Below are positions 7,298-45,470 of a DNA stretch of 64,000 nucleotides, one piece after another (within the stretch, counting starts at the first letter, position 1; each line of letters begins with the position of its first letter). This stretch comes from Pseudomonadota bacterium (GTDB taxonomy: Bacteria > Pseudomonadota > Gammaproteobacteria > Steroidobacterales > Steroidobacteraceae): NCBI GenBank assembly GCA_025357635.1, contig JANXOV010000073.1, positions 1 through 64,000 on the forward strand, in the 5' to 3' direction. The notes under the pieces were generated by a model. The model saw nothing but the letters and a program-made list of their open reading frames with translations. It did not search any database and was not told the origin of the DNA. A program made the position numbers and the translations under genes.

Positions 7298-9106
7298 TCA
7301 TGCGCTGAGCCGTTCATCGGCATCGGGCAACTGGTGTTGCAGAAAATGCGCGGCGTCCGTCTTGCCCATGTACTTGTCCAGCACGCGCACGTCGGTCTTG
7401 CGCAGATCCACCACCAGCAGGCAATCGATGGAGTCGCTGAAATCCGCATCGACATTGAAGCCGACGATCTTGCCGCCGAGCTTCAGGTATTGGCGCAGCA
7501 GCACCGGAATGCCCTTGCCGTCGGCTTCGAGGTTGCTCACGACATCGCCCAGGGACTCGAGCGACTGCGGACCCGGCCAGGGGTGAATCAGCGTCTTCAA
7601 GGACATGCGCCGGCGCAAGCGGTTGCGCGGCTTGACGCAGCGGGCAAGATCGGCCGCGAAATGCTCGCGCGAGAGATACTCGCGCAGAAACTCCTTGGAC
7701 AAGGGGTGATAGTCATTGCTGATGCTGACGGCGCCGAACAACACCGAATAGCGCGGATTGCGCGCGACGTAGGCTGCGATGCCCTTCCACAGCAACAGCA
7801 GCGGCGTGAATGATCGCTGATATTCCTGTCGAACGAAGGAGCGGCCCAGTTCCAGCGCCGGTCGCTGTTGCTCGAAGAAGCTGCGATGAAAGCGGAACAG
7901 ACTCTGCGTATACAGTCCGCTGAGCCCGCTGACCCGCAGGATCTCATCCGACCGTCCGATGCGGTAGGCGCCGGCAATCTCGCCTCGGGTCTCGTTCCAG
8001 ATGAACAGGTGGTCGTAATAATCGTCAAAACGGTCCAGATCGGTGGCGCGCCCGGTGCCCTCGCCGACGCTGCGGAAGGTGATCTCCCGCAGGCGGCCGA
8101 TCTCGGCGATCACCGCCGGCGCCTGTTGGCGGGTGGCCACGACCACGCTCAATTCGCCATTGCTCGACAGGCGTTGCAAGTCGGGCAGCGCAGCGATCTG
8201 TGCGGCCAGCACTTGTGGGTCGCTCGCCGCGGCAACCGGCTGACCCACCGCTTTGGCGGCCTCGGCCTTGGGGCGCACGACAGTCTCAACGGCCAGCGCA
8301 TACACCTGCAGCCGCAGATGACTGGCCAGCACATCGTTCTTTTCGATGCCGGCGATCCGGGCGGGTTCGACCGGCTTGCCGATGCTGATCAGGACCTCTT
8401 GGCGCGCCTTGTTCAACAACTCGCGCGGCAGCAGTGCGGTGCGCAGCAGCGGATGCACCAGGCCTGCCAGCTGAAACATCCAGCTGTTGTGGCCGCCGAA
8501 ATAGACCGGTGTGACCGGCGCGCCGCTCATGCGCACGATGCGCGCGGCCGAATCCGGCCACACGGGGTCGATGATGCCGCCGGCGTCCACCTTCAAGTGC
8601 GACACTTCACCAGAAGGGAACATCGCCAGCATGCCGCCGGATTCCACCCAGCGCAGGGCCTTGCGCACGCCGCTCACGTTTTCGCGTATGCCGCCGCGGC
8701 CGTTGAACAGGTCGACACTGATGAACAGTTCGCTCAATTCCGGAATCCGCGCCAGGAAGCGGTTCGTCAGAATCCGCACATCGGGACGGCGCTTGAGCAG
8801 CAATTGCGCCAGCAGCAGCCCGTCGAGCCCGCCAAACGGATGGTTCGCAACCGCGATCGCAGGACCGGTGGCGGGAATGGCGGCAAGACCGGCGCCGAGA
8901 ATCCGGGTGCGCACCTGCAGATGCTGGATGACCAGATCGACAAATTCCGCTGCCGTGTCTGCCGGCGGAATCCCGCGATAAAAATCGCTGAGCTTGTCCA
9001 GCGCCAGCGCGCCGTCGGCGACGCGGGTGAAGGCGCGCTTGAACGTCGGTAGGCGCGAAGAACGGGGGCGGTGACCACCGATGGAAAGGGCTCGCTGCTG
9101 CATCAT
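7298..9106 (-). CDS. olsF: Bifunctional acyltransferase, OlsF-like ornithine lipid synthase
   Basis: The 602-residue protein has two domains. The N-terminal half is a PlsC-type O-acyltransferase with NHPFGGLDG (His89, Asp95) and the FPSGE motif (about 164-168). The C-terminal half is an OlsB/hemolysin-like GNAT N-acyltransferase (REITFRSVGEGTG, DLDRFDDYYDHLFIWN, ELGRSFVRQEYQ). This fusion order is that of OlsF. OlsF makes lyso-ornithine lipid by N-acylation with its C-terminal domain and completes it with its N-terminal domain, giving phosphorus-free membrane lipids. It starts 22 bp after the LpxH-like gene on the same strand. The amino-acid substrate (ornithine or other) is inferred from the family. 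Confidence 0.82.
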   Translation of the reverse strand: MMQQRALSIGGHRPRSSRLPTFKRAFTRVADGALALDKLSDFYRGIPPADTAAEFVDLVIQHLQVRTRILGAGLAAIPATGPAIAVANHPFGGLDGLLLAQLLLKRRPDVRILTNRFLARIPELSELFISVDLFNGRGGIRENVSGVRKALRWVESGGMLAMFPSGEVSHLKVDAGGIIDPVWPDSAARIVRMSGAPVTPVYFGGHNSWMFQLAGLVHPLLRTALLPRELLNKARQEVLISIGKPVEPARIAGIEKNDVLASHLRLQVYALAVETVVRPKAEAAKAVGQPVAAASDPQVLAAQIAALPDLQRLSSNGELSVVVATRQQAPAVIAEIGRLREITFRSVGEGTGRATDLDRFDDYYDHLFIWNETRGEIAGAYRIGRSDEILRVSGLSGLYTQSLFRFHRSFFEQQRPALELGRSFVRQEYQRSFTPLLLLWKGIAAYVARNPRYSVLFGAVSISNDYHPLSKEFLREYLSREHFAADLARCVKPRNRLRRRMSLKTLIHPWPGPQSLESLGDVVSNLEADGKGIPVLLRQYLKLGGKIVGFNVDADFSDSIDCLLVVDLRKTDVRVLDKYMGKTDAAHFLQHQLPDADERLSA

Positions 9107-30597: not shown

Positions 30598-32508
30598 ATG
30601 AGAAATGTTTTTGTCTGGCAGCGGTTCCGTCCCGTGCTCACGATGGCCGCGGTTTATCTGGCGCTCGGGCTGACGCTGCGGCTCGGACTGTGGTGGGCGT
30701 TCGGCCGCAAGGAAGACGTCTCCACGCTGTCGCTCGTCTGGATACTGCCCGCGGGTCTGATCGCCGATTGGGTTCAATCGCTGTACCTGCTGCTGCCGTT
30801 TTCGGCCTTCGTGTTGCTCATGCCCGATCGCTGGTACCGCTGCACCGGCAATCGCTGGTTCGTGACAGGCATGTGCGCATTGAGCCTGTTCGCGCTGCTG
30901 TACCTGATTCCCACCGAATATTACTTCTTTGAAGAATTCGATGCGCGTTTCAACCTGGTCGCGGTCGACTATCTCATGTACCCGACCGAAGTCTTCACCG
31001 ACATTTGGGAAGCCTATCCGGTGATGCAATTCGTCGCCCTCGCGGCGATCCTAACGCTGATCGTGACCTGGGCCATTCGTCGCCATCTGGCGACGGGATT
31101 TTCCAATCCAACCACGCTGCGCGAGCGGGCGCCGGTTTTTCTCGCGCATGCTGCGCTGCTGGCCCTGGCAATCGGGCTTTTTCCCAGCAATCTGCTGTCG
31201 CGATCGGAAAACCGGCTGTCCAATGAACTGGCGCAAAACGGACACTCGAGCTTCTTCCGCGCACTGCGCACCAGCGAACTGGATTACCACGCGTACTACC
31301 GCACCCGCGACCGCGCGCAGAACTTTGACCGTCTGGTCAAGCAGCTGGCCGGCGGCGGCGGGCAGTTCACGCGTCTGCAGGAAGGCCGGCTGGACCGTTC
31401 CTTTCCGGCAAACCCGCAAGGATTGGGCAAGCTCAACATCGTCATCGTCATGAACGAATCCTTCGGCGCGGAATTCAGCAAGCTGTATGGCGATGAGCGC
31501 GATCTGATGCCCAACTTCGATCGCTACGCGCAGCAAGGACTCTGGTTCCGCAATGCCTATTCCTCCGGGACGCGCACGGTGCGCGGGCTGGAGGCCATCA
31601 CCAGCTCCTTTCCACCCACGCCCAGCGAGTCCATCGTGCGGCGTCCGGGCAACGACGGCATCGCCAGCATCGGCAAGGTGCTGCGCGCGGCGGGCTACCA
31701 CACGTCCTTTCTGTACGGCGGCAACGGCTACTTCGACAACATGAATGCGTTCTTCGATGCCAACGGTTACGAAATCCTGGATCGCAGCAAGATCAGCAAG
31801 ATCCGCTTCGAAAACATCTGGGGCGTCAGCGACGAGGACCTCTTCGATCGCGCGCTGGAGCATTTCGATGAGGTGGCCGGAACCGGCAAGCCGTTCCTGG
31901 CGCAGATCATGACCACCTCGAACCACAAACCGTTCACCTTCCGCGCCGGCGTCCCCGGAGTGCCGCCGGCGGGCGGCGGACGGGCGGCGGGTGTGCGCTA
32001 TGCGGACTTCGCCGTGGGATACTTTCTCGAAGAAGCGAGGAAGCATTCCTGGTTCAAGGACACCGTATTCGTGGTCGTTGCCGATCACGGCGCGCGCGTT
32101 TACGGCAAGGTGGAAATTCCACTGAAAACCTACGAGATTCCATTGATGATCTGGTCGCCGGGGCACATCAAGCCGCAGCGCGTGGACACGCTCACCGGCC
32201 AGATAGACATCGCGCCGACGCTGCTGGGCCTGCTGGGCCTGCCGTACACGGCGCCGTTCTTCGGGCAGAACGTGCTGGGTCCGAACCCGGGAACGCGCAT
32301 CGCGCTGTTCAATCACAATCACGATGTCGCACTGTACCGGGACGGCAAGATCGTGGTGCTGGGTCTGCAGAGGAAATCCACGACCTACACTTACGATAAG
32401 GATCGCAACACCTTCAAGCTCGAGCCGCGGGACGCAGGCCTCGAGGATCTGGCCATCGCGTACTATCAAACGGCATTTGAGCAGTTCCGCGCGCACACTT
32501 ACGAATGA
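30598..32508 (+). CDS. LTA synthase/OpgB-family sulfatase-fold membrane transferase
   Basis: The 636-residue protein has about five N-terminal transmembrane helices and a C-terminal alkaline-phosphatase-superfamily domain. Visible motifs are IVIVMNESFG (metal ligand), SGTRTVRGLEA (nucleophile Thr near residue 327), and VVVADHGARVYG (metal site). Relatives transfer phosphoglycerol or phosphoethanolamine from phospholipids to envelope glycans. The ATG at 30598 starts the first hydrophobic region; the track start at 30544 is less likely. Its stop overlaps the YdbH-like gene start by four bases, which ties it to outer-membrane lipid homeostasis. The acceptor substrate is unknown. Confidence 0.87.
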   Translation: MRNVFVWQRFRPVLTMAAVYLALGLTLRLGLWWAFGRKEDVSTLSLVWILPAGLIADWVQSLYLLLPFSAFVLLMPDRWYRCTGNRWFVTGMCALSLFALLYLIPTEYYFFEEFDARFNLVAVDYLMYPTEVFTDIWEAYPVMQFVALAAILTLIVTWAIRRHLATGFSNPTTLRERAPVFLAHAALLALAIGLFPSNLLSRSENRLSNELAQNGHSSFFRALRTSELDYHAYYRTRDRAQNFDRLVKQLAGGGGQFTRLQEGRLDRSFPANPQGLGKLNIVIVMNESFGAEFSKLYGDERDLMPNFDRYAQQGLWFRNAYSSGTRTVRGLEAITSSFPPTPSESIVRRPGNDGIASIGKVLRAAGYHTSFLYGGNGYFDNMNAFFDANGYEILDRSKISKIRFENIWGVSDEDLFDRALEHFDEVAGTGKPFLAQIMTTSNHKPFTFRAGVPGVPPAGGGRAAGVRYADFAVGYFLEEARKHSWFKDTVFVVVADHGARVYGKVEIPLKTYEIPLMIWSPGHIKPQRVDTLTGQIDIAPTLLGLLGLPYTAPFFGQNVLGPNPGTRIALFNHNHDVALYRDGKIVVLGLQRKSTTYTYDKDRNTFKLEPRDAGLEDLAIAYYQTAFEQFRAHTYE

Positions 32509-34658
32509 TCCGCCAGCGCAGGAGCCGGGGCGCAATTCCGATGACTGGCCGTCGCCTTGACTTGCGCGCAGGCGGCGCGTTGATGGCGGCAGCGTCGCTG
32601 CTGTTTTGCCCGCCGAGCGGGGCGATCGATCAGATCAGCGCAAGTGTAGAACGGTTGCAGCAATCCGGGGTGGATGCGCACGACATCGAAGTGCGGATGA
32701 ATTTTCCGGACCTATCGAAGAGCCCCGTCTGGATCCGGATCGCGCGTGTGGATCTGGGCGCCACGCTGGGCAGGGTCGATGACGTGCGGATCGAATGCCC
32801 GCTGCCGGTGATCAAGGAGCCGATTTTCAGCTGCGCGCGGGCGCAGGTGCGCGCCCGCTCCAGCCGCTTCGGTTTGCAGAATCTTCAAGCGGGCATCATC
32901 TGGAACAACCGCGATCGCACGCTGCAATTCAGCGCTGCCGGGCTGCGCGTAGCCGGCGGGCGCATCGATGCGCAGGGCCGGTGGGGACGGCGCGGCTGGT
33001 CGATGACTCTGAAGGCGGATTCCATCGCCCTGGCGCAGGCGCGCCCACTGCTGGGCGGCCTTCTGCCGCTTCCGGGCGACTGGTCGCTGGAGGGAAAACT
33101 CGAGAACCTGACGGCGCAACTCGCCGGCGCGGCGGCGCTGGGGACCGTCAGTGTGCATGCCGTGCTGGGTGGCGTGAGCCTTGCCAATCCCGAGGGCACG
33201 ACCGCAACCGACCAATTGGGTGCGACCCTGGAATTGCGCGGCAACAGGACCCAAGGCGCCTGGCAATACGAGGCAACCGTACATTCCACGCACGGTGAGG
33301 CCTTGTCAGGCCGCTGGTATTGGAATTTTTCGAATCAACCGCTGCAGGCGCATTGGCGCGGTCAATGGAACGATGAGAACGTGTTGACGCTGGAGGAATC
33401 ACAGCTGACCCTCGGCGGCTTCATTCACGCCGCCGTGCGCGGCCGGATCAGTCTGGCCGAAAAACCGATGTTGCGCGACCTCGAAATACAGCTTGCAGAT
33501 CTGGATCTGGCCGCGCTTCCACCGCAGACGCGCGACGGCATTTTTTCGGGCAGTCTCGTCTCGCAACTGCATGGCGCCGGACATTTCAGCGGCCGCATCG
33601 AGGTGCAGGACGATCTGCCGGCCGCGATCGACCTGACGCTCGACTCGGTTCTTCTGCAGGATCAAAGCGCGAAGCTCGCGCTGGGCGGGGTAAACGGACA
33701 TCTCGTGTGGCACACTCTCGAGCGGCGCAAACAAGCCCTGGCCGCGCAGAGCGATGACACGCAATCCGAACTGCGCTGGGACAGCGGACTGCTGTACGGC
33801 GTGCAGATCGGCGAGGCGCGGATTCGATTCACCACCGCCGGCAACGACGTGCGTCTGATGCAACGCGCGCGCATCCCGATTCTGGATGGCGGGCTCGCAA
33901 TCAGCACGCTGCAGTTGCGCCGCATCGGTGAGGAGGCGATGTCCATCCGCTTCGACGCGACGCTGGATCCGATCAGTGTGGCGCAGCTGTGCAAGGCATT
34001 TGGCTGGCCGGAGTTCGCCGGAAAACTGTCGGGCCGGATTCCGGACCTCACGCTGGAATCCGGGGTGCTGACACTGGGCGGCGCATTACAGGCATCGGTC
34101 TTCGATGGTCAGTTGTCGGTCAAGGACTTGAAGCTGAGCGACCCATTCGGCTCGCGCCCGCGCCTGCAGGCCAACATGGCGTTCTCGCACCTGGATCTGG
34201 CGGCGGTCACCGGCGCATTTTCCTTCGGCAAGATCACCGGCCGCATCGACGGGCACATTTCCGCGCTGGAACTGGTGGGATGGGAACCGGTGGCATTCGA
34301 TGCGGCGCTGTACTCGACACCCGGCGACCGGACGCGCAAGCGCATCAGCCAGCGTGCCGTGCAGAACATCTCCAGCATCGGCGGCGGATCCGGCGCCGCA
34401 GCCGCGCTGCAGCGAAGCGTGCTGCGGTTTTTCAACGAGTTCAACTACGACAAGCTCGGCATTTCGTGCCGGCTGAATAACGATGTATGTCTGATGCAGG
34501 GCGTCCAGGCGCACGCCTCGGGCTATTATCTGGTCAAGGGGTCGGGACTGCCGCGCATCGACGTCATCGGGGATGCGCACCGGGTGGACTGGCTGAGCCT
34601 GGTCGCGACCCTGAAGGAGCTGCCTAAATCCCAGGCTGCAATCGGCAAATCCCCTTGA
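32505..34658 (+). CDS. ydbH: YdbH-like AsmA-type intermembrane protein
   Basis: The 717-residue protein has a single N-terminal hydrophobic segment (GGALMAAASLLFC) and then long repetitive beta-strand-rich sequence typical of bridge-like AsmA proteins. The C-terminal region (RAVQNISSIGGGSGAAAALQRSVLRFFNEFNYDKLGISC) matches the conserved end of YdbH. In E. coli, YdbH and lipoprotein YnbE form an intermembrane bridge that moves phospholipid to the outer membrane, redundantly with TamB and YhdP. Here the next gene encodes a YnbE/YdbL-like protein, which supports the call. It is somewhat shorter than E. coli YdbH (879). Confidence 0.82.
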   Translation: MIRQRRSRGAIPMTGRRLDLRAGGALMAAASLLFCPPSGAIDQISASVERLQQSGVDAHDIEVRMNFPDLSKSPVWIRIARVDLGATLGRVDDVRIECPLPVIKEPIFSCARAQVRARSSRFGLQNLQAGIIWNNRDRTLQFSAAGLRVAGGRIDAQGRWGRRGWSMTLKADSIALAQARPLLGGLLPLPGDWSLEGKLENLTAQLAGAAALGTVSVHAVLGGVSLANPEGTTATDQLGATLELRGNRTQGAWQYEATVHSTHGEALSGRWYWNFSNQPLQAHWRGQWNDENVLTLEESQLTLGGFIHAAVRGRISLAEKPMLRDLEIQLADLDLAALPPQTRDGIFSGSLVSQLHGAGHFSGRIEVQDDLPAAIDLTLDSVLLQDQSAKLALGGVNGHLVWHTLERRKQALAAQSDDTQSELRWDSGLLYGVQIGEARIRFTTAGNDVRLMQRARIPILDGGLAISTLQLRRIGEEAMSIRFDATLDPISVAQLCKAFGWPEFAGKLSGRIPDLTLESGVLTLGGALQASVFDGQLSVKDLKLSDPFGSRPRLQANMAFSHLDLAAVTGAFSFGKITGRIDGHISALELVGWEPVAFDAALYSTPGDRTRKRISQRAVQNISSIGGGSGAAAALQRSVLRFFNEFNYDKLGISCRLNNDVCLMQGVQAHASGYYLVKGSGLPRIDVIGDAHRVDWLSLVATLKELPKSQAAIGKSP

Positions 34659-34744
34659 CGAACGGGCTTTTGGCGTTCAGCGTTCATTCACCCGGCAGGG
34701 AAGAAACTGGTTGCCGGCTTGCGATAAACGGTCAGGAGCAATGG

Positions 34745-35365
34745 ATGAAAAAGATTTTCTTGGTTCAATGCGCGGTGTTGTCGGCGGTGCTGGCGGCCTG
34801 CGTCACGATCAACGTGTACTTCCCCGCGGCAGCAGCCGAAAAGGCCGCCGACCGGATCATCGGCGATGTGATCGGCAAGAGTTCCGAGGCCGCACCGGCC
34901 GTGAAAGAGCCGCCAACCGGATCACTGGAGGAAAGCGCGCCGCGCCTCGGCAATCGGCTGCTTGCAGGCCTGGATCAGGTGTTGCGGGTGTTGGTCGCGC
35001 CTGCACAGGCGGCAGCTCCGGATCTGGATGTTTCCTCGGCCACCATCCGCCAGATCACCGATTCGATGAAGGCGCGTCACGCAACGCTTGCAAAGTACTA
35101 CGACGGCGGCGCCATCGGCTACACGGCCGACGGCCTCATCGACGTGCGCGACGCGAATGCCATTGCGCTGGCCGAGCGCAACTCGGTGCGCAAGGCGGTG
35201 GCGGATGAGAATCGCGACCGCGCCGCGCTTTACGCCGAAATCGCCAAGGCGAATGGACATCCGGAATGGCAGCCGGATATCCGTGCGACTTTCGCCAAGC
35301 GCTGGGTGGCCAACGCCAAGGCCGGCTGGTACTACAACGACGGCAGCGGCTGGAAGCAGAAGTAG
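34745..35365 (+). CDS. ydbL: YdbL (DUF1318)-family lipoprotein with YnbE-like N-terminus
   Basis: The 206-residue protein starts at ATG 34745 after AGGAG; the longer track start has no such support. A lipoprotein signal (VLAAC) is followed at once by VTINVYFPAAAAEKAADRI, which resembles the beta-strand of the YnbE lipoprotein that pairs with YdbH. The C-terminal half is a DUF1318/YdbL domain (DGLIDVRDANAIALAERNSVRKAV ... YNDGSGWKQK). E. coli has two separate genes (ynbE, ydbL) after ydbH; here one polypeptide seems to combine both. It probably anchors the YdbH bridge at the outer membrane. Confidence 0.83.
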   Translation: MKKIFLVQCAVLSAVLAACVTINVYFPAAAAEKAADRIIGDVIGKSSEAAPAVKEPPTGSLEESAPRLGNRLLAGLDQVLRVLVAPAQAAAPDLDVSSATIRQITDSMKARHATLAKYYDGGAIGYTADGLIDVRDANAIALAERNSVRKAVADENRDRAALYAEIAKANGHPEWQPDIRATFAKRWVANAKAGWYYNDGSGWKQK

Positions 35366-35831: not shown

Positions 35832-36617
35832 TCAGTCTCGAATGCCTGTACCACGGTTCAGCAGCTGCACGGCAAGCGTAAACATGAAAACCGCCGCACC
35901 GATCATGATGCCAAAGGCGAGCCGCAGGTCGACGTCCGTGGTGCCGAGAAACCCGAAGCGAAATGCACTGACCATGTACAGGATGGGATTGGCGTGCGAG
36001 GCGGCGCGCGCCCAATCGGGCAGCATGTTGATGGAATAGAAAACCCCACCCAGATACGTCAGCGGCGTCAGCACGAAGGTTGGAAACCAGGAAATCTGGT
36101 CGAAATTCTTGGCGAAAATGGCGTTGATGAAGCCGCCGAGCGCGAACACGACGCTGGTCAGCAGAACGGCCGACACGGTCGCAAAAACATTGTGGATGGC
36201 CAGGTGCGTGAAGAACAATGCCACCACGGTCACCACGCTGCCCACCAGCAGGCCGCGCAGCACGCCGCCGCCGATATAGCCGGTGAGGATCAGCCAGTTG
36301 GGGAGCGGCGAGACCAGCAATTCCTCGATGTGCTTGCCAAATTTTGCGCCGAAGAACGAGGACACCACGTTGGCGTAGGAATTGGTGATCACCGTCATCA
36401 TGATCAGACCGGGCGCGATGTATTGCATGTAGTCGAAGCCGCCGACGCTGCCCACGCGCCGGCCGATCAGGCTGCCGAAAATCACGAAATACAGGGTCGC
36501 GGTGACCGCGGGGGGCACCAGCGTCTGACCCCAGATGCGTGCGATGCGGTTGAACTCGCGGATGATGATGGTCTGAAAGCCGATCCAGTCGGTGCGCGCG
36601 CGCGACGGCGCCCTCAT
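35832..36617 (-). CDS. ABC-2 type transporter permease (YadH-like)
   Basis: The 261-residue protein has six hydrophobic segments and the ABC-2 membrane domain layout, including NSYANVVSSFFGAKFGKHIEELLVSPL and the late GGVFYSINMLPDWAR region. It is a half-transporter permease of the YadH type that probably exports a lipid, glycan or drug. Its start overlaps the ATPase stop by four bases (ATGA). The substrate cannot be told from sequence. Confidence 0.92.
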   Translation of the reverse strand: MRAPSRARTDWIGFQTIIIREFNRIARIWGQTLVPPAVTATLYFVIFGSLIGRRVGSVGGFDYMQYIAPGLIMMTVITNSYANVVSSFFGAKFGKHIEELLVSPLPNWLILTGYIGGGVLRGLLVGSVVTVVALFFTHLAIHNVFATVSAVLLTSVVFALGGFINAIFAKNFDQISWFPTFVLTPLTYLGGVFYSINMLPDWARAASHANPILYMVSAFRFGFLGTTDVDLRLAFGIMIGAAVFMFTLAVQLLNRGTGIRD

Positions 36618-37561
36618 GCGGGCAGCACCGCAGCGGCCGGTTGCGCAGGTTTGGCATCGACAAGGCGGATGAACAGCTCTTCGAGGCGGTTGACCTTGTT
36701 GCGCATGCTGGTCACGTCGATCCCAGCCGCAGAAAACTGCGCGAAGATGTCATTCAAACTCTGCTCCTTGGACATCTCGACCTCGAGGGTGTGCTCATCG
36801 ATCAGGTGCGCGGTGAAGCCCTGCAAAGCCGGCGCGCGCTGCAGCGAGGCGCGCACGTTGAAGACGAAGATCTCCGTCTGCAGCTTGCGCAACACATTGG
36901 CCATGCTGTCGCGCTCGATGATCCGTCCGCCGTCGATGATGGCGATCTGGCGGCACAGATTCTCCGCTTCTTCAAGATAGTGAGTGGTCAGGATGATGGT
37001 GGTGCCGCTGTCGTTGATCTCCCGCAGGAACACCCACATGCTGCGGCGGATCTCGATGTCCACGCCCGCCGTCGGCTCGTCCAGAATCAGCAGCCGCGGC
37101 TCGTGCATCAAGGCGCGAGCGATCATCAGGCGCCGCTTCATGCCGCCGGACAGCGAGCGGGCGATGGAATTGCGCTTCTCCCACAACTGCAGTTGCTTGA
37201 GATACTTCTCGGCGCGCTGTTTGGCAAGCGAACGGGGGATGCCGTAAAAACCGGCCTGATTGACCACGATGGTCAGGCAGGTTTCGAACATGTTGAAATT
37301 GATTTCCTGCGGCACCAGGCCAATGCAGGATTTGGCGACCTCCAGTTCCCGGTCGATGTCGTGGCCGAACACCTCGACCGCTCCACCGGTCTTGTTGACC
37401 AGCGAGGTGACAATGCCGATCGCCGTGGTCTTGCCGGCGCCATTGGGGCCCAAAAGCGCAAAGAATTCCCCTTCCGGGACTTCCAAATCGATGCCTTTTA
37501 AAGCCTGGACGCCGTTTTTGTAGGTTTTCGACAGATTCTTGAGGACTAGGGCAGGTTTCAT
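36614..37561 (-). CDS. ABC transporter ATP-binding protein (YadG-like)
   Basis: The 315-residue ATPase has Walker A (LLGPNGAGKTT), the ABC signature (RSLSGGMKRRLMIARAL), Walker B (LLILDEPTAGVD) and the H-loop (LTTHYLEEAE). Its C-terminal extension of about 90 residues is typical of ABC-2 exporters. It pairs with the overlapping permease gene downstream. The FlhD-like gene lies 96 bp upstream on the same strand, so read-through from that promoter is possible. Confidence 0.94.
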   Translation of the reverse strand: MKPALVLKNLSKTYKNGVQALKGIDLEVPEGEFFALLGPNGAGKTTAIGIVTSLVNKTGGAVEVFGHDIDRELEVAKSCIGLVPQEINFNMFETCLTIVVNQAGFYGIPRSLAKQRAEKYLKQLQLWEKRNSIARSLSGGMKRRLMIARALMHEPRLLILDEPTAGVDIEIRRSMWVFLREINDSGTTIILTTHYLEEAENLCRQIAIIDGGRIIERDSMANVLRKLQTEIFVFNVRASLQRAPALQGFTAHLIDEHTLEVEMSKEQSLNDIFAQFSAAGIDVTSMRNKVNRLEELFIRLVDAKPAQPAAAVLPA

Positions 37562-37657: not shown

Positions 37658-38281
37658 TTAATTTGACAAACGCACCGCGGCGGCAATCTGCAGACCGAAC
37701 AGCTGGGCGCGCCGCAGATTGACCGAGCCCGGAAGGCTCGCGGGGCTCGTCAGTGCATACCAATACGACCGGGAGTTTGCCCAGCGCAAGCTCAGGTGAT
37801 GCCGCTGCAAACCGATGAGGGCGGGCAGCCGGTCAAGCGTGACCCGGCCCAGATCGCGCGCGGTGCGCTCGGCCATTCCCAGGATCAGCGGTGCGGACAA
37901 CGGCTGCGTCTGCGCCAGATGCCAGCAGTAAAACAGCGCCAATTGCAGAAACTCGGCAATTTGCGGGTTCTGCGCGGGCAGATCCGCCACCCGCCAGTGG
38001 GGCGCGGACTGAAGCGAGATCTGCCAATGGGCATCGTCGCAAAAGCGGATGTCGAACAATGCGTACGGGCATTGCGACAGCGCCGTCCGCCGCTCTTCGC
38101 TCAACCCGGCGATGCGCCGCGCAAGTTCTGCCGGCGCGCTGAGGCTCCACTGCGACCCGCAGATCGCGCCGCAGCCGGCGGCCAGATCCAAAAAGCGCCG
38201 GTTCAACTGGTTCAGCGAGCTGAGCAGCTGCTGCGACAAAAGCGGTTCTCGATGCGTGCCGGCCGGTCTTGCTTCTTGCAT
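37658..38281 (-). CDS. FlhD-like protein with C-terminal extension (tentative)
   Basis: The 207-residue protein starts at ATG 38281 (GGAG eight bases upstream). Residues about 19-85 can be aligned by eye with E. coli FlhD: LLSSLNQLNRRFLDLAA against LLKHIYDINLSYLLLAQ, then AELARRIAGL and a matching IRF/FRF segment near residue 78-80. FlhD is 116 residues; here about 100 extra residues follow (LILGMAERTARDLGRVTLDRL...) with no known motif. The gene is divergent from an FlhC-like gene, which strengthens the idea that the two products form a complex. The resemblance is weak in sequence and needs a profile or structure test. Confidence 0.5.
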   Translation of the reverse strand: MQEARPAGTHREPLLSQQLLSSLNQLNRRFLDLAAGCGAICGSQWSLSAPAELARRIAGLSEERRTALSQCPYALFDIRFCDDAHWQISLQSAPHWRVADLPAQNPQIAEFLQLALFYCWHLAQTQPLSAPLILGMAERTARDLGRVTLDRLPALIGLQRHHLSLRWANSRSYWYALTSPASLPGSVNLRRAQLFGLQIAAAVRLSN

Positions 38282-38403
38282 GTTGAGTTCTCCATGAGTT
38301 TTGAATCGGGGTGAAAACGGCACTAATGCCGACTGGAAAATCGTCTACCATGCCTTTTAAACTTTATGACTAAATTTTGTCAAATTTTTTGATAAGGGAA
38401 AAC
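38282..38403. promoter_or_regulatory. Shared divergent promoter region of the FlhD/FlhC-like genes with AT-rich dyad
   Basis: This 122-bp region separates the two divergent start codons. Its right half is strikingly AT-rich for this genome. It contains a dyad TTGTCAAA (38377-38384) and TTTGATAA (38388-38395) directly before the ribosome-binding site AAGGGA of the FlhC-like gene. This is a good place for an autoregulatory operator. The dyad is seen directly; its function is inferred. Confidence 0.5.
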
Positions 38404-39027
38404 ATGCGTATTTCAGACGACCGTTACAGCCGCGATCGGCAAAACATGGAAATCGCCGTCCGCTTGATCCACCACGAGGCCCGCACGCTGACCATCCGCG
38501 AATGGACCGGCCTGTCCGATGACCGCATTCGCAAGCTGTACCGGACCTACGTCGCCAATCAAGGGACGCGGCGCATACTGCGTCATCGCGGCAAGTCCCC
38601 CCGCCAGAGCGCCTACTTCTTCCGCAATGCGGACCGCAATTTTCAAGCCGCGCAGCTGGCCAGCATGTACATCATGGTCGGCCTGCTCAAGCCGGTTGCG
38701 CTGGGCGTGGAGTCGCGCTGCGAATTGGGATCCCTCACCTCCTGCCTGCTGTTGTGCCAGGCCTATGAGACCTACGCCGATCTGCATCCGCAGAACGATC
38801 GGCTGTCCTTCGAACACGCCTGGTTCTTGCTGATCGCCCTGTCCCGGCGCCATGAAATCGGCATTTCCAGCTGCGGCGCCTGCGGCGGTGTCAAGCTGCG
38901 CGACCTGCTGTCCCGCCGCGGCGCTGTCTGCAGCCACTGCCAGTCCAGCCTGGAGTTGCATTTCGCTGACCCGTTGGACGCACCGCCGGCCCTCGCGGGT
39001 GCTCAAGGCGGCCGCTCGAGGGACTGA
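38404..39027 (+). CDS. FlhC-like transcriptional activator
   Basis: The 207-residue protein starts at ATG 38404 after AAGGGA. It follows the FlhC layout: an N-terminal helical part (DRQNMEIAVRLIHHEARTLTIREWTGLSDDRIRKLYR) like the FlhC HTH region, then a C-terminal zinc site with Cys157-x2-Cys160 and Cys176-x2-Cys179. Spacing (3, 16, 3) is close to that of E. coli FlhC (3, 17, 3). In enterobacteria FlhC binds FlhD in a hetero-oligomer that activates flagellar genes. No flagellar gene is in the window, so the target genes are unknown. NudC follows after 12 bp. Confidence 0.78.
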   Translation: MRISDDRYSRDRQNMEIAVRLIHHEARTLTIREWTGLSDDRIRKLYRTYVANQGTRRILRHRGKSPRQSAYFFRNADRNFQAAQLASMYIMVGLLKPVALGVESRCELGSLTSCLLLCQAYETYADLHPQNDRLSFEHAWFLLIALSRRHEIGISSCGACGGVKLRDLLSRRGAVCSHCQSSLELHFADPLDAPPALAGAQGGRSRD

Positions 39028-39039
39028 TAGAATCAGTCG

Positions 39040-40005
39040 ATGCACCGAAGGAACGTTTTTGCCGGGCCGTATCTGGACCGCGTGGCCCATTTGCGCCAGG
39101 ACGAGCACTGGCTGGCCGCAGCGCTGGCCGATGCCCGCAGCCGCGCCATTCCGGTCTGGAACTCCAAGAGCCTGATCACCGAGGCTTCGGATGCGCCGCC
39201 CGGAGCGCCCACGGCGCGCGCCGGATTCGTTGAATTTTCCGCCCTGCCCAGCGGCACCGCGAACCTGGGATCCCTCATTTTCCTCGGCACCCACGAACAA
39301 GCGCACTACTTTGCCTACGAACTGGAGGCCACGGAGCCGCCGCTGCTGCTGCCTAACGCCCAATTCCAGGATTTGCGCCTGAACGCCGCGCGCCTGGACT
39401 CGCGCGAGGCGGGGTTGCTGGCGTATGCCCGGGCGATGATTTCATGGCGCCGCAGTCACCGCTACTGCGGCAAATGCGGAACGGGAACCGCTGCGGCCAA
39501 GGGTGGTCATGTTCTCAGATGCACCAATCCTTCCTGCGGACATGAACAGTTTCCACGCCTCGATCCCGCCGTCATCGTGCTGGTGAGCGACGGCAATCAG
39601 GCGCTGCTGGGCCGGCAGGCCTCCTGGCCGACCGGGCGCTATTCCACCATCGCCGGCTTCGTCGAGCCCGGCGAGTCGCTCGAAGACGCGGTCGTGCGCG
39701 AAGTGGCCGAGGAAACCGGTGTCGAGGTGCAGGAGGTTCACTATCATTCCTCGCAACCCTGGCCCTTCCCCTCCTCCTTGATGCTCGGCTTCCTGGCCCG
39801 GGCGCGTACGCGCGCCATTCACCTTCGCGATCAGGAACTGGAGGATGCCCGCTGGTTCAGCCGCGCCGACATACTCGCGGCGCCGTCGATGCTCCCGCCG
39901 CATCAATCCATTTCATTCAGCCTCATCGAGCAATGGTTTGATTCCCTCGGCGATGGGCGGCTGCGCGATCTCGCCGGTGGCAGTTCGTGGCCCGCGCCGC
40001 GCTGA
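39040..40005 (+). CDS. nudC: NAD+ diphosphatase / NAD-capped RNA hydrolase NudC
   Basis: The 321-residue Nudix hydrolase has an N-terminal NudC domain, a four-cysteine zinc ribbon (Cys143, 146, 161, 166), the Nudix box (GFVEPGESLEDAVVREVAEETGVEV pattern, about 209-233) and the NudC-specific SQPWPFPSS motif. It cleaves NAD(H) and removes NAD caps from RNA. Its 3' end overlaps the tamA start by 19 bp. It is preceded by the FlhC-like gene after 12 bp. Confidence 0.95.
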   Translation: MHRRNVFAGPYLDRVAHLRQDEHWLAAALADARSRAIPVWNSKSLITEASDAPPGAPTARAGFVEFSALPSGTANLGSLIFLGTHEQAHYFAYELEATEPPLLLPNAQFQDLRLNAARLDSREAGLLAYARAMISWRRSHRYCGKCGTGTAAAKGGHVLRCTNPSCGHEQFPRLDPAVIVLVSDGNQALLGRQASWPTGRYSTIAGFVEPGESLEDAVVREVAEETGVEVQEVHYHSSQPWPFPSSLMLGFLARARTRAIHLRDQELEDARWFSRADILAAPSMLPPHQSISFSLIEQWFDSLGDGRLRDLAGGSSWPAPR

Positions 40006-41732
40006 AGGGACCTTTCCGGGTTTTGGCGGCATGCTTGGCTGGGCTCCTGTGTCAGCGGGCGCTGGGCAACATCACCATCGACGTCAACGGCATCGACGGC
40101 GACATGAAACGCAATGTGCTTACTTTCCTGAGCCTGCAGCGCTATGCCGAGCGCGACGATCTTGACGCCGATACGGTCGAGCGCATCAGCCAGCGCGCCA
40201 CGCCAGAAGTCAAAGCCGCGCTCAAGCCCTTCGGCTATTACGATCCCACGGTCACTGCGGCCATCAAACGCGAGGGCAGCAACTGGCGCGCCACCATCAC
40301 GGTGGAGCGCGGCGAGCCGGTCGTGCTGCGGGAAGTGGACCTGCAGATCACCGGACCCGGCGCGCAGGAGCGCATGTTCAGCGCCGCGCTCGCCCGCTCC
40401 ACCCTCAAGGTGGGCGATCAACTCAACCACGGCGCCTATGAACGGGTGAAAGGCGATCTGGAGCGCACTGCCGCCTCTTTTGGTTACCTCGACGCCAAGC
40501 TCGAGCGGCATGAATTATTGGTCGACCCGAAGGGCAAGAGCGCCAGCGCGCATCTGCTGCTGGACACCGGGCCGCGCTACCGTTTCGGCGAGACCACCAT
40601 CAGGCAATCGGTGATCGACGAGGAGGTGATGCGCAAATACATCCGCTATCGCGAAGATCAGCCCTACGACTCAACCTCGCTCCTGCGCACCCAGTTTGCG
40701 CTGGATGACAGTCAGTACTTTTCCAGCGTCGAAGTGCTGCCCGGCGAACGCAACACCGAAACGCTCACCGTACCCGTGGTCATTCAAGGATTGCCGAACA
40801 AGCGAAACCGCTACAGCATCGGCGCAGGCTACGGTTCGGACACCAAGTTCCGCGGCACACTGGCCTGGGACAACCGGTTGGTCAACGCAAAAGGTCATCG
40901 GGCGCATGTGGAGATCAAGGCATCGGGCATCACGCAGGAACTGAACGCCAACTACATCATCCCGGTCGGTGATCCGGCGCTGGAAAGATTGAGCCTCGAG
41001 TCCATTTATGGACGATCCACCCTGGGCGATGTGACCACCACGGGTCTGGTGGTCAAACCCAGCCTGACCCAGGTGCTGGGCAACTGGCAGCGCGTGCTGT
41101 TCGTCTCGATGAACAAAAGCATCAGCCGCACGGATTTCACCAGCACGGCAAATTCCTTGCTCATTCCAGGCATCAGCTATGCCTCGATACCGCCGGGCAT
41201 TTTCGGGCAACCCGTGTCCGGGCGCGGCCTGTACGCCGAGTTGAGGGGTTCGCACGCCGTCTTGGGATCCAATTCAAACTACCTGCGCTTGTTCGTTCAA
41301 GATGACCGGCGCTTCGACCTGTCGCAGCGCTGGCACCTGTTGCTGCGCGCTCAGTTTGGCACCACCATCGTTTCGCAGTTCGCTGAGTTGCCCGCGTTCG
41401 AGCGCTTCTTCGCCGGCGGTGATCGCAGCGTGCGCGGCTTTGCACTGAACGATCTGAGCCCGGTGGATCAGTACGGCCAAAAGGTCGGCGGCCGCCATCT
41501 GGTCGTCGGCAGCGTGGAAATCGAGCGCGATCTGCCCCGCAACTTTGCCGTGGCGAGCTTTTTCGATGCCGGCAATGCCATGAATTCCTTGACCGATCCG
41601 CTGGAGTATTCGGCCGGCATCGGCGTGCGCTTCAAACTGCCGGCGGTGAGCTTTGGCCTGGATATCGCGCAGGCCTTGTCGCGCACAGACCTGGCTCCGC
41701 GACTGCACCTGAACATTCAGCCGGTGTTCTAG
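39987..41732 (+). CDS. tamA: Autotransporter assembly complex protein TamA
   Basis: The 581-residue Omp85-family protein starts at GTG inside the nudC 3' end. A signal peptide (VLAACLAGLLCQRALG) is followed by about three POTRA domains (to residue ~260) and a 16-strand barrel ending in Phe (LNIQPVF). The barrel has the conserved FFAGGDRSVRGF motif of the substrate-gating loop. With TamB it spans the envelope and moves outer-membrane proteins or lipids. The tamB start codon follows with no gap. Confidence 0.93.
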   Translation: MARAALKGPFRVLAACLAGLLCQRALGNITIDVNGIDGDMKRNVLTFLSLQRYAERDDLDADTVERISQRATPEVKAALKPFGYYDPTVTAAIKREGSNWRATITVERGEPVVLREVDLQITGPGAQERMFSAALARSTLKVGDQLNHGAYERVKGDLERTAASFGYLDAKLERHELLVDPKGKSASAHLLLDTGPRYRFGETTIRQSVIDEEVMRKYIRYREDQPYDSTSLLRTQFALDDSQYFSSVEVLPGERNTETLTVPVVIQGLPNKRNRYSIGAGYGSDTKFRGTLAWDNRLVNAKGHRAHVEIKASGITQELNANYIIPVGDPALERLSLESIYGRSTLGDVTTTGLVVKPSLTQVLGNWQRVLFVSMNKSISRTDFTSTANSLLIPGISYASIPPGIFGQPVSGRGLYAELRGSHAVLGSNSNYLRLFVQDDRRFDLSQRWHLLLRAQFGTTIVSQFAELPAFERFFAGGDRSVRGFALNDLSPVDQYGQKVGGRHLVVGSVEIERDLPRNFAVASFFDAGNAMNSLTDPLEYSAGIGVRFKLPAVSFGLDIAQALSRTDLAPRLHLNIQPVF

Positions 41733-44700
41733 ATGAAGCGCAAGATCCTCATCGTCGTTGCCGCCGTCTTGACGCTGTTTCTGGCGCTGCCCGTCGGTGC
41801 GATCTACTGGGTGGTGTACACCCAAAGCGGCCTGCGCTTTGCCATCGGGCAATTGGATCATCTGAAGAAAGTCGTGCGAATCCACGCCACCGGTGTGCAT
41901 GGCACGCTGGCCGAGGGCGTGCGCATCGACAGCGTGAGCGTCGATCACGAGCGGGTCAGTATCCAGGTCGAGGATTTCAAATTCACCGTGCTGCCGCGGG
42001 CGCTGCTTTTGCAAACCGTGCGGGTGGAGCGCTCCTCCATGGGCAAGGTGCGCGTGGAAGTGCGGCCGCGGACGCATCCGCCCAGCAACACGCCGTTGAA
42101 ATTTCTGCCCTCCTTCCTGCGCATCGTCGTGAGCGACGGCGATCTGGGTCAAGCGGATGTCGTACTGCAGAATCACTACCAGATCCATGCGCATGCGCTG
42201 CACGCCGGCGGCCTGCTGCTGACCAGCAGGCACTTGTCGGTCACCAAGCTGTTCGCCGACGGCGGATTCTTCACCGCGGCCGGCAGTTTCGACATGGACG
42301 CCGCCGATCCGATCGCCCTGCGCAGCGAATTGGATTGGACCCTGGTGTTTGCCGATCGGCCGCCATGGAAGGGCGTGCTGCATGCCAAGGGCGATTTGAA
42401 CGATCTTGAGGTCAAGGCGGAGCAAAGCCAGCCCATCCAGGCAACTGTCGTGGGCCGCGCGCTGGCGCTGACGCATGACTGGCACTGGGAAGCGCGCGTC
42501 ACCAGCAACTTCATCGATTTCACGCATCTGAATCCATCAGCCAGGATTTCCGCCGCCGACATTGCACTGGATGTGCGCGGCGATCACACCGGCATGCAGG
42601 TGGGCGGCGTCCTGCGTCCCACCACCCTGCCCACCGGCAACCTGCGCGTGAGTGCGAGCGGACCGTACCCGGGCCGTCGCGTGCAGCTCGACGCAATCCG
42701 GATCGAGGCGGCCGGTGGTGTGCGCGTGGACGCTCGCGCCGTGATGAATTTCATCGACGGCGGCCCGGACATCGCTCTGAGCGGCCGCACCACCAATTTC
42801 CGCTGGCCCATTCTCGGCAAGGCGGTGGTCACCTCGGCGTCCGCCGAATTTTCCTTGAGCGGACCGCGCCTGCCCTATCGGTTCACGGTGAAGGGCCCCG
42901 TGAGCGTGCCCGCTGTACCCGCCTTCGGCGTCGAAGCCTCAGGCATCCTCGGCAGCGATCACCTGGAGCTGAGCAAGGCCAGCGCCACGTGGCTCAAAGG
43001 CCGCATCGATGCCAGCGGGCAGCTGGGCTGGACGGGACGCGGGCAATGGAGTTTCGCCGCCACCGGAATCGATCTGGACCCCGGCTCGATTGATCCTGCC
43101 TGGCCGGGTCGGTTGAGTTTCGGCGCGACGCTGGAAGGCAGCGGCCTCAACGCCAATGCCGACATCGATTTGAGAGTCAGCCGCGTGGCCGGGACTTTGC
43201 GCGGCGAAAGCGCGTTTGCGCAAGGTCGCGTGCAGCGCCACGGCGAGAATCTGATGTTCGATCATGTGCAGGCGCGGCTGGCGGACGCGCATGCAGAACT
43301 CAGCGGAACCTTCGGCAATCCGCGCGACATCCGCCTGACCCTCGACGCGCCGCACCTGCAGCGCATCGTGCCGCCGTTCAAAGGCGCGGTCTCGGTCAAC
43401 GGGCGCCTGTCGGGCCCCCCCGCCACGGCGCGATTGAGCGGCACGGTGACCGGCCATGCGCTGATCTTCAGCAGCATCGCCGCGCAGAACCTGCATGCCA
43501 GCGCCGACATCGACCTGTCCGATCGGCTGGCCTCGCATTTCAATCTCAAGGCCGACGCGGTGACGCTCGCCGAGCGCAATCTCGGGCGCGTCGATGCACT
43601 GCTCGATGGACGCGCGTCCGAGCATCGATTCATCTTCAATGTCGCCGACGGGCTGATCGACATCCACGCCGGCGTGAGCGGCGCGTATGACCCCAAAGGC
43701 TGGCGTGGCCGCATCGAGGAATTGATGCTGCGCAATGGCGTCGATGTGAATCTGGCCCTGGAAGCGCCGGCCGCGCTGCAGGCCTCCTCCAGCAGCGCAG
43801 CCCTTGCGCATCTGTGCCTGCTCGGAACAAAGGAACGCGTGTGCGCGCAGGGCGACTGGACGCGGGCCGGCCGGTGGAATCTGCAGTCCGCCGGCACCGG
43901 CATAGCGCTGCGCGCCTTCGGCGCCAACCTGCGCACCAAGCCCCAGTACACGGGCGCGCTGGCGTACGACATCGACGCGCATGGCACCACGCTGGAGGAT
44001 GCGGTGGGGCATCTGTCGGTGGATCTGGCCGAAGGCAATCTGCGCTACAAACTGCCCAGCGGACACGAGGATACGGTGCACCTGGGCAGCGGCCATGGCG
44101 AGATCACCGCCACGCCGGCATTCATCGACGCGAAGCTGCATCTCGCAGCGACCGAACAAAACTTCCTCGACGTGAAGCTCCAAGGCGCGCGTGCCGCCGG
44201 ACAGAGCGTGCTGCAGACGCCGGTGACCGGCGAGATCCATACCCAGGCCAACGAACTCGGATTCATCGCCCTGCTCGTGGATCAGATCGATCGAGCCAAA
44301 GGCCAGCTGAACGCCGACCTTGCCGTCAGCGGCACACTGGCCGAACCACGACTGGATGGCGCCGTGAAACTGCAGCAAGGCGAGCTGGATATCTATCAGG
44401 TGAACCTGCTGATGCGCGCCATCAATGCGCGCGTCGACATCGCCGGCACGCAGATCGCGTTGGCCGGCAGCACCACCATCGGCGCAGGCAAGGCCAGCAT
44501 CGCCGGCGAACTCGCCTGGACCGAGCGCAAGCCCAAGGGAGAGATTCATCTCACCGGCGAGAAGCTGATGATGGTGAACATTCCGGAACTGCGCGCGGAC
44601 GCATCGCCTGATCTGAAATTCAAGATCGACGGCCGGCGCATCGACGTCGACGGCACCGTGACCATTCCCTACGCGCGCATCAAGCCGGCGGATCTCACCG

Positions 44701-45470
44701 GCGCCGTACTCTCATCAGGCGATGAAATCATCGTTGGCGAGCAGACCGGCCCCGACGATCAACGCCTGATGATCTACACCGACGTCAAACTGGTGCTGGG
44801 CGCGGATGTCACGGTGGACACCTACGGACTGACAGGCCGGCTCACCGGCAGCGTGGCGGCGAGCAGCGATCCGAGCGGCGCTGCGCGCGGTTCGGGCGAA
44901 CTGAAAATCGCAGAAGGCAAATACGCGGCCTACGGAAGGTTGTTGGACATCGAGCGCGGCCGGCTGATTTTCAGCGGCGGGCTGGTAAGCGATCCGGCGG
45001 TGGATTTACGAGCCCAGAAGATGTTCCCCGACGTCACCGCGGGCGTCAACGTTCGCGGCAAATTACGCAATCCGCAGATCAGCTTCTATTCCGTTCCGTC
45101 GCTGTCGCAATCTCAAATCGTTTCGATACTGCTGGCCGGCGGCACGCTCGAGTCGGTGCAGAAGAGCGGCCCGCAGCAGGCAAGTCAAGCCCGCAACCAA
45201 TTGCTGGCGCAAGGCGGCGCCATTGTCGCGCAACAGTTCGGAGCCCGCGTGGGCGTGGAGGATGTGGGCCTGGAATCCGATACGTTCAATCAGACCTCCC
45301 TGGTCCTGGGTAAATTCCTCAACCCACGGCTGTATGTCAGCTACGGCATCAGCTTGTCGGAGTCCATCAACACGGTGAAGCTGCGCTATACGCTGGGAGA
45401 TCACTGGACCATCAAGACTGAGGCCGGGCAGAATCGCAGCACGGATTTGATTTTTACCATCGAGCGGTAG
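41733..45470 (+). CDS. tamB: Translocation and assembly module / AsmA-like lipid bridge protein TamB
   Basis: The 1245-residue protein has an N-terminal inner-membrane helix (ILIVVAAVLTLFLALPVGAIYW) and a very long periplasmic beta-taco body. The conserved C-terminal TamB (DUF490) domain has IAEGKYAAYGRLLDIERGRL, the QSQIVSILLAGG region and the final LRYTLGDHWTIKTEAG strands. Length equals the E. coli protein (1259). TamB interacts with TamA and also serves in phospholipid transport to the outer membrane, redundantly with YdbH and YhdP. A large antisense ORF here is a shadow. Confidence 0.95.
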   Translation: MKRKILIVVAAVLTLFLALPVGAIYWVVYTQSGLRFAIGQLDHLKKVVRIHATGVHGTLAEGVRIDSVSVDHERVSIQVEDFKFTVLPRALLLQTVRVERSSMGKVRVEVRPRTHPPSNTPLKFLPSFLRIVVSDGDLGQADVVLQNHYQIHAHALHAGGLLLTSRHLSVTKLFADGGFFTAAGSFDMDAADPIALRSELDWTLVFADRPPWKGVLHAKGDLNDLEVKAEQSQPIQATVVGRALALTHDWHWEARVTSNFIDFTHLNPSARISAADIALDVRGDHTGMQVGGVLRPTTLPTGNLRVSASGPYPGRRVQLDAIRIEAAGGVRVDARAVMNFIDGGPDIALSGRTTNFRWPILGKAVVTSASAEFSLSGPRLPYRFTVKGPVSVPAVPAFGVEASGILGSDHLELSKASATWLKGRIDASGQLGWTGRGQWSFAATGIDLDPGSIDPAWPGRLSFGATLEGSGLNANADIDLRVSRVAGTLRGESAFAQGRVQRHGENLMFDHVQARLADAHAELSGTFGNPRDIRLTLDAPHLQRIVPPFKGAVSVNGRLSGPPATARLSGTVTGHALIFSSIAAQNLHASADIDLSDRLASHFNLKADAVTLAERNLGRVDALLDGRASEHRFIFNVADGLIDIHAGVSGAYDPKGWRGRIEELMLRNGVDVNLALEAPAALQASSSSAALAHLCLLGTKERVCAQGDWTRAGRWNLQSAGTGIALRAFGANLRTKPQYTGALAYDIDAHGTTLEDAVGHLSVDLAEGNLRYKLPSGHEDTVHLGSGHGEITATPAFIDAKLHLAATEQNFLDVKLQGARAAGQSVLQTPVTGEIHTQANELGFIALLVDQIDRAKGQLNADLAVSGTLAEPRLDGAVKLQQGELDIYQVNLLMRAINARVDIAGTQIALAGSTTIGAGKASIAGELAWTERKPKGEIHLTGEKLMMVNIPELRADASPDLKFKIDGRRIDVDGTVTIPYARIKPADLTGAVLSSGDEIIVGEQTGPDDQRLMIYTDVKLVLGADVTVDTYGLTGRLTGSVAASSDPSGAARGSGELKIAEGKYAAYGRLLDIERGRLIFSGGLVSDPAVDLRAQKMFPDVTAGVNVRGKLRNPQISFYSVPSLSQSQIVSILLAGGTLESVQKSGPQQASQARNQLLAQGGAIVAQQFGARVGVEDVGLESDTFNQTSLVLGKFLNPRLYVSYGISLSESINTVKLRYTLGDHWTIKTEAGQNRSTDLIFTIER

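Follow-up and report, generated by a model that had tools for sequence, protein, structure and literature searches.

A chromosomal FlhDC-type factor with a predicted single-chain FlhD dimer, encoded as a divergent unit beside cell envelope genes and apparently targeting its own locus

Gene content of the locus

The window, that is, the whole stretch of 64,000 nt analyzed here, contains a divergent gene pair between positions 37658 and 39027. The D subunit gene lies on the minus strand (37658..38281; ORF call, likely start ATG 38281) and the C subunit gene on the plus strand (38404..39027; ORF call, likely start ATG 38404), and each encodes a protein of 207 aa. The divergent regulatory region between them (38282..38403) measures exactly 122 bp. 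Both ORFs and the length of this region agree with the preliminary description of the locus, and the same holds for the neighbors that it named, an ABC exporter and NudC, which were matched by Pfam and NCBIfam models. On the plus strand, the stop codon of the C gene is separated by 12 bp from the gene for NudC (NAD+ diphosphatase; 39040..40005; NCBIfam NF001299, 241 bits, cut-off 158), and the two genes probably form one operon. The next genes on this strand encode a TamA-like Omp85 protein (39987..41732), which scores above the cut-offs of Pfam POTRA_TamA_1 (66.3 bits) and Omp85 (84 bits) but reaches 368 bits with the NCBIfam TamA model, under that model's cut-off of 625, and a TamB-like protein (41733..45470), which is above the cut-off for Pfam TamB (202.7 bits) and, at 431.6 bits, under the cut-off of 825 of the NCBIfam TamB model. 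On the minus strand, 96 bp downstream of the D gene, lies the gene for an ABC exporter ATPase (36614..37561; Pfam ABC_tran, 110.6 bits), followed by that of an ABC-2 exporter permease (35832..36617; NCBIfam NF011648, 394.7 bits, cut-off 225). The Rfam search gave no match, and the tRNA search found none.

Elsewhere in the window, a 717-aa ORF without a Pfam match is followed by the gene for a DUF1318 protein (YdbL-like) on the plus strand (32505-35365); we take this pair to be ydbH/ydbL, and 10 of the 80 listed loci described below have it, too, upstream of the ABC exporter. On the minus strand, the product of the frame at 7298-9106 is similar to OlsF, a bifunctional ornithine lipid synthase; its 394 bits fall short of the 620 required by the equivalog model.

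The C subunit

The C protein scores marginally over the curated cut-off of the Pfam FlhC family (PF05280; 27.3 bits, cut-off 27), and the same model matches 55 of 56 C relatives at an E value of 0.1 or better. The cut-off of the NCBIfam FlhC equivalog is not reached (26.7 bits, cut-off 216), and therefore we call the protein FlhC-like and not an orthologous flagellar FlhC. A profile of the C family (56 sequences) matched the solved FlhC chains 8j56_C (E 6.3e-9) and 2avu_E (E 6.3e-6). The AlphaFold2 model of the protein (pLDDT 88.4) was aligned by VIA-align with 8j56_C at a Z score of 16.3 (151 residues, rmsd 2.8) and with 2avu_E at 14.9, the next entry scoring 4.5, and Foldseek matched the model to FlhC with an E value of 5.4e-6. 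The C-x2-C ... C-x2-C zinc site (C157, C160, C176 and C179; 38872..38940, plus strand) is unchanged in 56 of 56 rows of alignment A3, which comprises 55 C-like sequences and that of the window, 82 C-like frames having passed. Thus, the plus-strand gene encodes an FlhC-like protein with the predicted FlhC fold and the zinc site, and the FlhC-like helices and paired C-x2-C motifs that had been read from the sequence hold up.

The D subunit

Taken alone, the D protein of the window matched no model in Pfam, including FlhD (PF05247), or in NCBIfam, and a single-sequence search of the PDB sequences gave no usable match. A profile of the D family (68 sequences), by contrast with these single-sequence searches, matched 8j56_A with an E value of 2.8e-6 over an alignment from 16 to 187, and it matched FlhD 5hxg_B in the N-terminal half (17-96) and FlhD 1g8e_A in the C-terminal half (113-168). 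Alignment A2 comprises 67 of the 77 D-like loci and the window; alignment A1 has 24 rows. Pfam FlhD matches 12 of the 68 family members at an E value of 0.1 or better (best 1.5e-6), and among 59 related genomes it matched two, below the cut-off, in each case a D-like ORF adjoining a C-like gene. In a VIA-align comparison of the AlphaFold2 model (pLDDT 90.1, pTM 0.87), five FlhD entries were the only ones above 3.3 (FlhD Z 7.2-7.5; next row, unrelated, 3.3). The E values of Foldseek for FlhD were 2.3 and worse and hence not significant, with probabilities of up to 0.87. The FlhD likeness proposed earlier was thus missed by single-sequence searches of Pfam, NCBIfam and PDB, but was recovered at the levels of the family profile, the predicted fold and profile-profile comparison. 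The two outcomes named beforehand as counting against it, absence of an FlhD profile match and absence of an FlhD-like fold, thus did not occur.

With 207 aa and two domains, the protein departs from the PF05247 pattern of one FlhD domain of about 116 aa. Its residues 14-103 (37973..38242, minus strand) were aligned by VIA-align with the whole FlhD chain 1g8e_A (Z 7.4, 89 residues, rmsd 2.5), and residues 102-206 (37664..37978, minus strand) with the whole FlhD chain 2avu_B (Z 7.5, 103 of 104 residues, rmsd 2.5). In hhalign comparisons with a 13-sequence FlhD alignment as the reference, the N-terminal half scored 43.0 and the C-terminal half 41.8; of 100 controls with permuted columns, the highest reached 22.3 and 19.2, respectively, so that none of the 100 permutations reached the observed score for either half. 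The two halves are only weakly alike (hhalign probability 7%, score 18.4 vs. a permuted maximum of 16.4); the tandem organization is therefore argued from the match of each half to FlhD and not from the likeness between the halves. A single FlhD split by a 90-residue insertion was rejected, because each of the two segments aligns separately to a whole FlhD chain. Taken together, the profile and model comparisons establish that the minus-strand protein consists of two predicted FlhD domains fused in a single chain. The roughly 100 additional residues pointed out in the preliminary description are real in length, but they are not extra: they make up the second FlhD-like domain.

Distribution and linkage of the gene pair

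With single-sequence queries, relatives of the C protein were found in 106 and relatives of the D protein in 93 of 118 related genomes. A search of 84,980 species genomes with the C protein gave 228 relatives, and the locus counts that follow refer to the 80 listed of these 228. By their titles, the 80 loci belong to uncultured Gammaproteobacteria, Proteobacteria or Pseudomonadota, to Steroidobacteraceae and, in one case, to Lysobacteraceae. A D partner is present in 77 of them, on the opposite strand and head-to-head in 77 of 77 cases, and the three loci without it are contig ends with only 470, 165 and 0 bases upstream. The usual place of the divergent pair is between the ABC exporter and NudC-TamA-TamB: the 80 listed loci, many of which are too short to span all neighbor genes, contain NudC in 74 cases, the ABC ATPase in 54, the permease in 51, TamA in 39 and TamB in 38. 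In one relative (G003), D and C are co-directional. Among 274 sampled genomes of the class, full-length matches to the D profile occurred only in three members of the window's order, and four other genomes matched by the C-terminal half alone, in short frames. Searching plasmids with the C and D proteins by tblastn yielded no relatives of note. The divergent pair is thus an old, linked, head-to-head unit. Divergence is the usual arrangement throughout the group and not a local change, which casts doubt on the idea that the pair is rewired.

Several loci have additional or altered copies. Seven genomes (G011, G023, G066, G068, G060, G091 and G098) have two to four FlhC-like matches each, and the D protein of the second pair in G023 is the nearest to Pfam FlhD. 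The C-like gene of locus L089 is broken into two frames, which may reflect a pseudogene or an assembly error, and at locus L158 D and C are about 1.5 kb apart, with NudC-TamA-TamB inverted relative to the C gene. Genome G362 contains four single-domain FlhD-like genes (L167, L175, L176 and L185), each beside an FlhC-like frame.

A conserved palindrome between the two genes

The upstream regions of 78 loci and of the window have a palindrome in common, with the matrix consensus ATTTGGTAAAATTTTACCAAAT (about 20 bits). In the window, the predicted operator TTATGACTAAATTTTGTCAAAT is a 22-bp palindrome at 38364..38385, recognized by the palindromic matrix and the clade pattern; it scores 24.8 bits, and the next best site in the 64-kb window 14.2 bits. 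The matrix was trained on the same 79 upstream regions that it scores, and in this in-sample comparison 70 of the 79 regions reach about 15 bits or more, while nine are lower, two of them (L161 and L148) without any site. Across 1.077 Mb of locus DNA, 79 sites score at least 15 bits, and 77 of them lie between D and C. The remaining two are at locus L158, upstream of the displaced D gene; the C gene of this locus kept its own operator site, too.

Because the matrix is in-sample, fixed patterns were also run over whole genomes. The exact pattern TTTGGKNNWWTTNNMCCAAA gave 12 sites in 70 genomes, 12 of 12 between D and C, and the reversed control gave none. When two mismatches were tolerated in 14 genomes, 7 of them (G091, G030, G010, G033, G088, G073 and G072) had a site at the locus and nowhere else; a few extra sites occur in G069, G020, G080 and G062, and more in G013, G023 and G063, with counts near those of the reversed-pattern control. 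The variant of the window's clade, TTTRTGANTAAWTTYTGTCAAA, searched with up to three mismatches, has six sites in six genomes, five of them at the locus. Its single match in the window's whole genome is at the D/C locus; in genome G001 it has no site. The one extra site (G028, contig C4, L205) is inside a reading frame that is MFS-like as judged from its sequence by eye, not by a profile. None of the exact, two-mismatch and clade patterns revealed a convincing second regulon target. Thus, the predicted operator is a conserved 22-bp intergenic palindrome that is found almost nowhere else.

The position of the palindrome relative to promoter elements was counted in 73 of the 79 upstream regions (score above 12 bits, full flanks). 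The best −10 element begins at −5 or −6 from the operator center in 35 of the 73 regions, and TTGG is found at −29 or −28 from the center in 29. In the window's clade, the operator includes a D-strand TTGAC at a −35-like position (21 of 73). A consensus scan found no sigma-70-like promoter in the window itself, so the overlap with the −10 element is an argument from relatives. At seven loci (L117, L132, L136, L139, L140, L153 and L159), two palindrome copies about 35 bp apart were seen by eye, which may reflect cooperative binding, and in one clade (L105, L108, L120 and L147) the operator has just downstream of it another short inverted repeat, with the form GTTTC...GAAAC. A comparison of operator type with protein residues produced alignment columns that split two operator classes; the split is confounded with phylogeny, L145 was misclassified, and the comparison was dropped.

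Proposed mode of action and alternative explanations

Within the FlhD4C2 complex, FlhD sits as dimers, and since it acts in this form, one tandem D chain would replace an FlhD dimer, resulting in a C2(DD)2 complex of fixed stoichiometry. Our preferred reading, to which we assign a probability of roughly 55%, is that such an FlhDC-type heteromeric factor binds to the divergent promoters from which it is itself expressed and adjusts the envelope operons on either side. C2(DD)2 would bind the intergenic palindrome and thereby control two divergent transcripts, one comprising C-nudC-tamA-tamB and the other D, perhaps together with the ABC exporter across the 96-bp gap. As the palindrome would be placed on the −10 element of the C promoter, binding would repress the C side. 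Such negative autoregulation is the likelier sign of control, since about half of the relatives have the best −10 of their C promoter overlapped by the palindrome. AcaCD and SetCD are described as activators bound near −35 in the available portions of the source (PMC4542580), so that the opposite sign, activation by the C/D complex, is possible by analogy for the D side. The job of the complex would be local control of an envelope gene set, and not of flagella.

A stricter form of this proposal can be advanced only tentatively. It holds that the factor, with its FlhD dimer joined covalently, would be a single-site autorepressor; its own divergent promoters would be the one strong target in the genome, and in this way its level would be coupled to TamA-TamB, NudC and the exporter. 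If true, this would add to the FlhDC type a repressor that acts locally, and FlhD would have been fused in this way twice, here and on IncA/IncC plasmids.

It is somewhat unlikely, in our view, that the pair is instead a global regulator with weaker or differently built sites at many unlinked genes, of which the palindrome would be just the strongest, autoregulatory one. Known FlhDC-type members do have regulons, as far as the accessible text of two reports goes (PMC4207636, PMC4542580), and degenerate sites would be invisible to a strict pattern. However, the relaxed two-mismatch search left the locus as the sole site in half of the 14 genomes, and in three others with more sites the numbers were near the control.

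We give little credence to the possibility that the palindrome serves an unlinked regulator controlling this locus, while the C/D complex acts elsewhere. In favor of it, 20-22 bp is short for a ring-shaped complex of the FlhD4C2 type, an argument from size that is general background. Yet the palindrome is kept together with the pair, even at L158, where D and C, though apart, both keep copies, and one site per genome is unusual for such a regulator.

A further candidate is a domesticated AcaCD-like activator of a conjugative element that was captured long ago by the chromosome. The AcaD-type D subunits of pRA1 (L186:45679-46284), pAQU2 (L211:925-1506) and pKAM339_1 (L212:901-1503), annotated as hypothetical proteins, are tandem FlhDs as well; the one of pRA1 was identified as AcaD by its place before an FlhC-family gene and by the 202-aa FlhD-like protein mentioned in the accessible part of PMC3915882. 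In the family formed by pRA1 and the two relatives, the halves match FlhD with E values of 6.6e-7 and 6.8e-8, and the N-terminal half matches the C-terminal half with an E value of 4.3e-10. By these comparisons AcaD of IncA plasmids is a tandem FlhD, which explains why the D subunit of AcaCD has about 200 residues. In the parts of the open-access literature that were available, no statement that AcaD is a tandem FlhD, or on tandem, duplicated or fused FlhD, was found. In a tree of the C subunits, AcaC is grouped on the same side as the proteins of the window's order, with a support of only 75/51 and long branches. AcaD and the D family gave a collinear alignment of 144 columns with a score of 24.5 vs. 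17.8 in 100 permutations, at a probability of only 7.7%. Nevertheless, a captured plasmid activator is very unlikely: the AcaD halves are far closer to each other than to the halves of the D family, an N-N/C-C pattern between the two families is absent, which favors two independent duplications, and the chromosomal pair shows conserved synteny with housekeeping genes. The two kinds of tandem FlhD, to judge from these alignments, are probably products of independent duplications.

The preliminary description had suggested that the pair may be a rewired FlhDC-type master regulator. The FlhDC-type nature of the pair stands, given the FlhC-like C gene and the FlhD fold predicted for the minus-strand protein, and so, as far as flagellin is concerned, does its location away from flagellar genes: the flagellin matches of the window's genome are on another contig (C72) than the window (C43). 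A role as flagellar master regulator is not supported. Flagellin was found in 36 of 59 relatives, and the C-like gene is slightly more common with flagellin than without it (34 of 36 vs. 18 of 23; Fisher p 0.098). At least 7 of the 36 relatives with flagellin (G011, G020, G024, G039, G041, G045 and G058) have a FleQ-family match no more than about 5 kb away from it, the matches to the FleQ profile being mostly weak, receiver-like and counted only where they adjoin flagellin; in the window's own genome, the FleQ-like match and flagellin are on separate contigs. Although this genome has flagellins, the retention of the C gene in 18 of 23 flagellin-less relatives and the restriction of the exact operator pattern to the pair's own locus make a flagellar regulator the least probable of all these explanations. 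We conclude that the pair probably regulates locally, acting on its own genes and the neighboring envelope genes rather than on flagella.

FlhDC is the textbook flagellar regulator, and FlhDC-like pairs have been discussed mainly for flagella and conjugative elements. The pair described here has been kept in a chromosomal lineage across many families, with or without flagellin, which suggests a third, so far unstudied role for the FlhDC fold, one that synteny links to the cell envelope. As the tandem FlhD would be a natural single-chain FlhD dimer, an FlhD4C2-type stoichiometry becomes directly testable. A search of the open-access literature listed neither a report of a tandem FlhD nor one linking FlhDC with TamA/TamB, subscription journals being outside the scope of the search.

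Comparison with known FlhDC-type systems

With FlhDC (E. coli, 2avu; Cupriavidus necator, 8j56), described in the available portions of two reports as a heterohexamer FlhD4C2 (PMC4605294; PMC3510510), the pair has in common the FlhC fold with a C4 zinc site (Z 14.9-16.3), the FlhD fold (Z 7.2-7.5) and the encoding by two adjacent genes. It differs in the two predicted FlhD domains in one chain of the D subunit. Canonical flagellar FlhDC is encoded in one operon, whereas the pair in the window is divergent and has its own palindromic site, and canonical FlhDC, which activates flagellar class II genes, goes with flagella, whereas the window-type C gene is also found without flagellin, as set out above.

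The single-domain FlhD-like/FlhC-like pairs of other Gammaproteobacteria (L167-L176, L179-L185) also have adjacent D and C genes, but their D protein, from a frame of about 104-170 aa, contains a single FlhD domain and no tandem. SetCD (SXT/R391) was compared by its description: in the accessible parts of the reports (PMC4344509, PMC4542580) it is, like the window pair, a heteromeric FlhCD-like regulator, but it is an activator of a mobile element. For BisDC (ICEclc), the available text of PMC7423338 reports an FlhC-like C subunit and autoregulation by positive feedback; it differs in that BisD is reported to have a ParB domain and no FlhD domain.

In architecture, the pair also resembles AcaCD of IncA/IncC plasmids (pRA1 L186:45679-46838; relatives in pAQU2 and pKAM339_1), which, according to the accessible part of PMC4207636, activates transfer genes and has a motif that bears no relation to the one of FlhDC. 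Both systems have an FlhC-type C subunit and a D subunit of about 200 aa that is predicted to be a tandem FlhD. However, acaD and acaC overlap and form one operon on a conjugative plasmid, whereas the pair in the window is divergent and chromosomal; and whereas AcaCD and SetCD reside on mobile elements beside conjugation genes, the window pair lies beside an ABC exporter, NudC, TamA and TamB.
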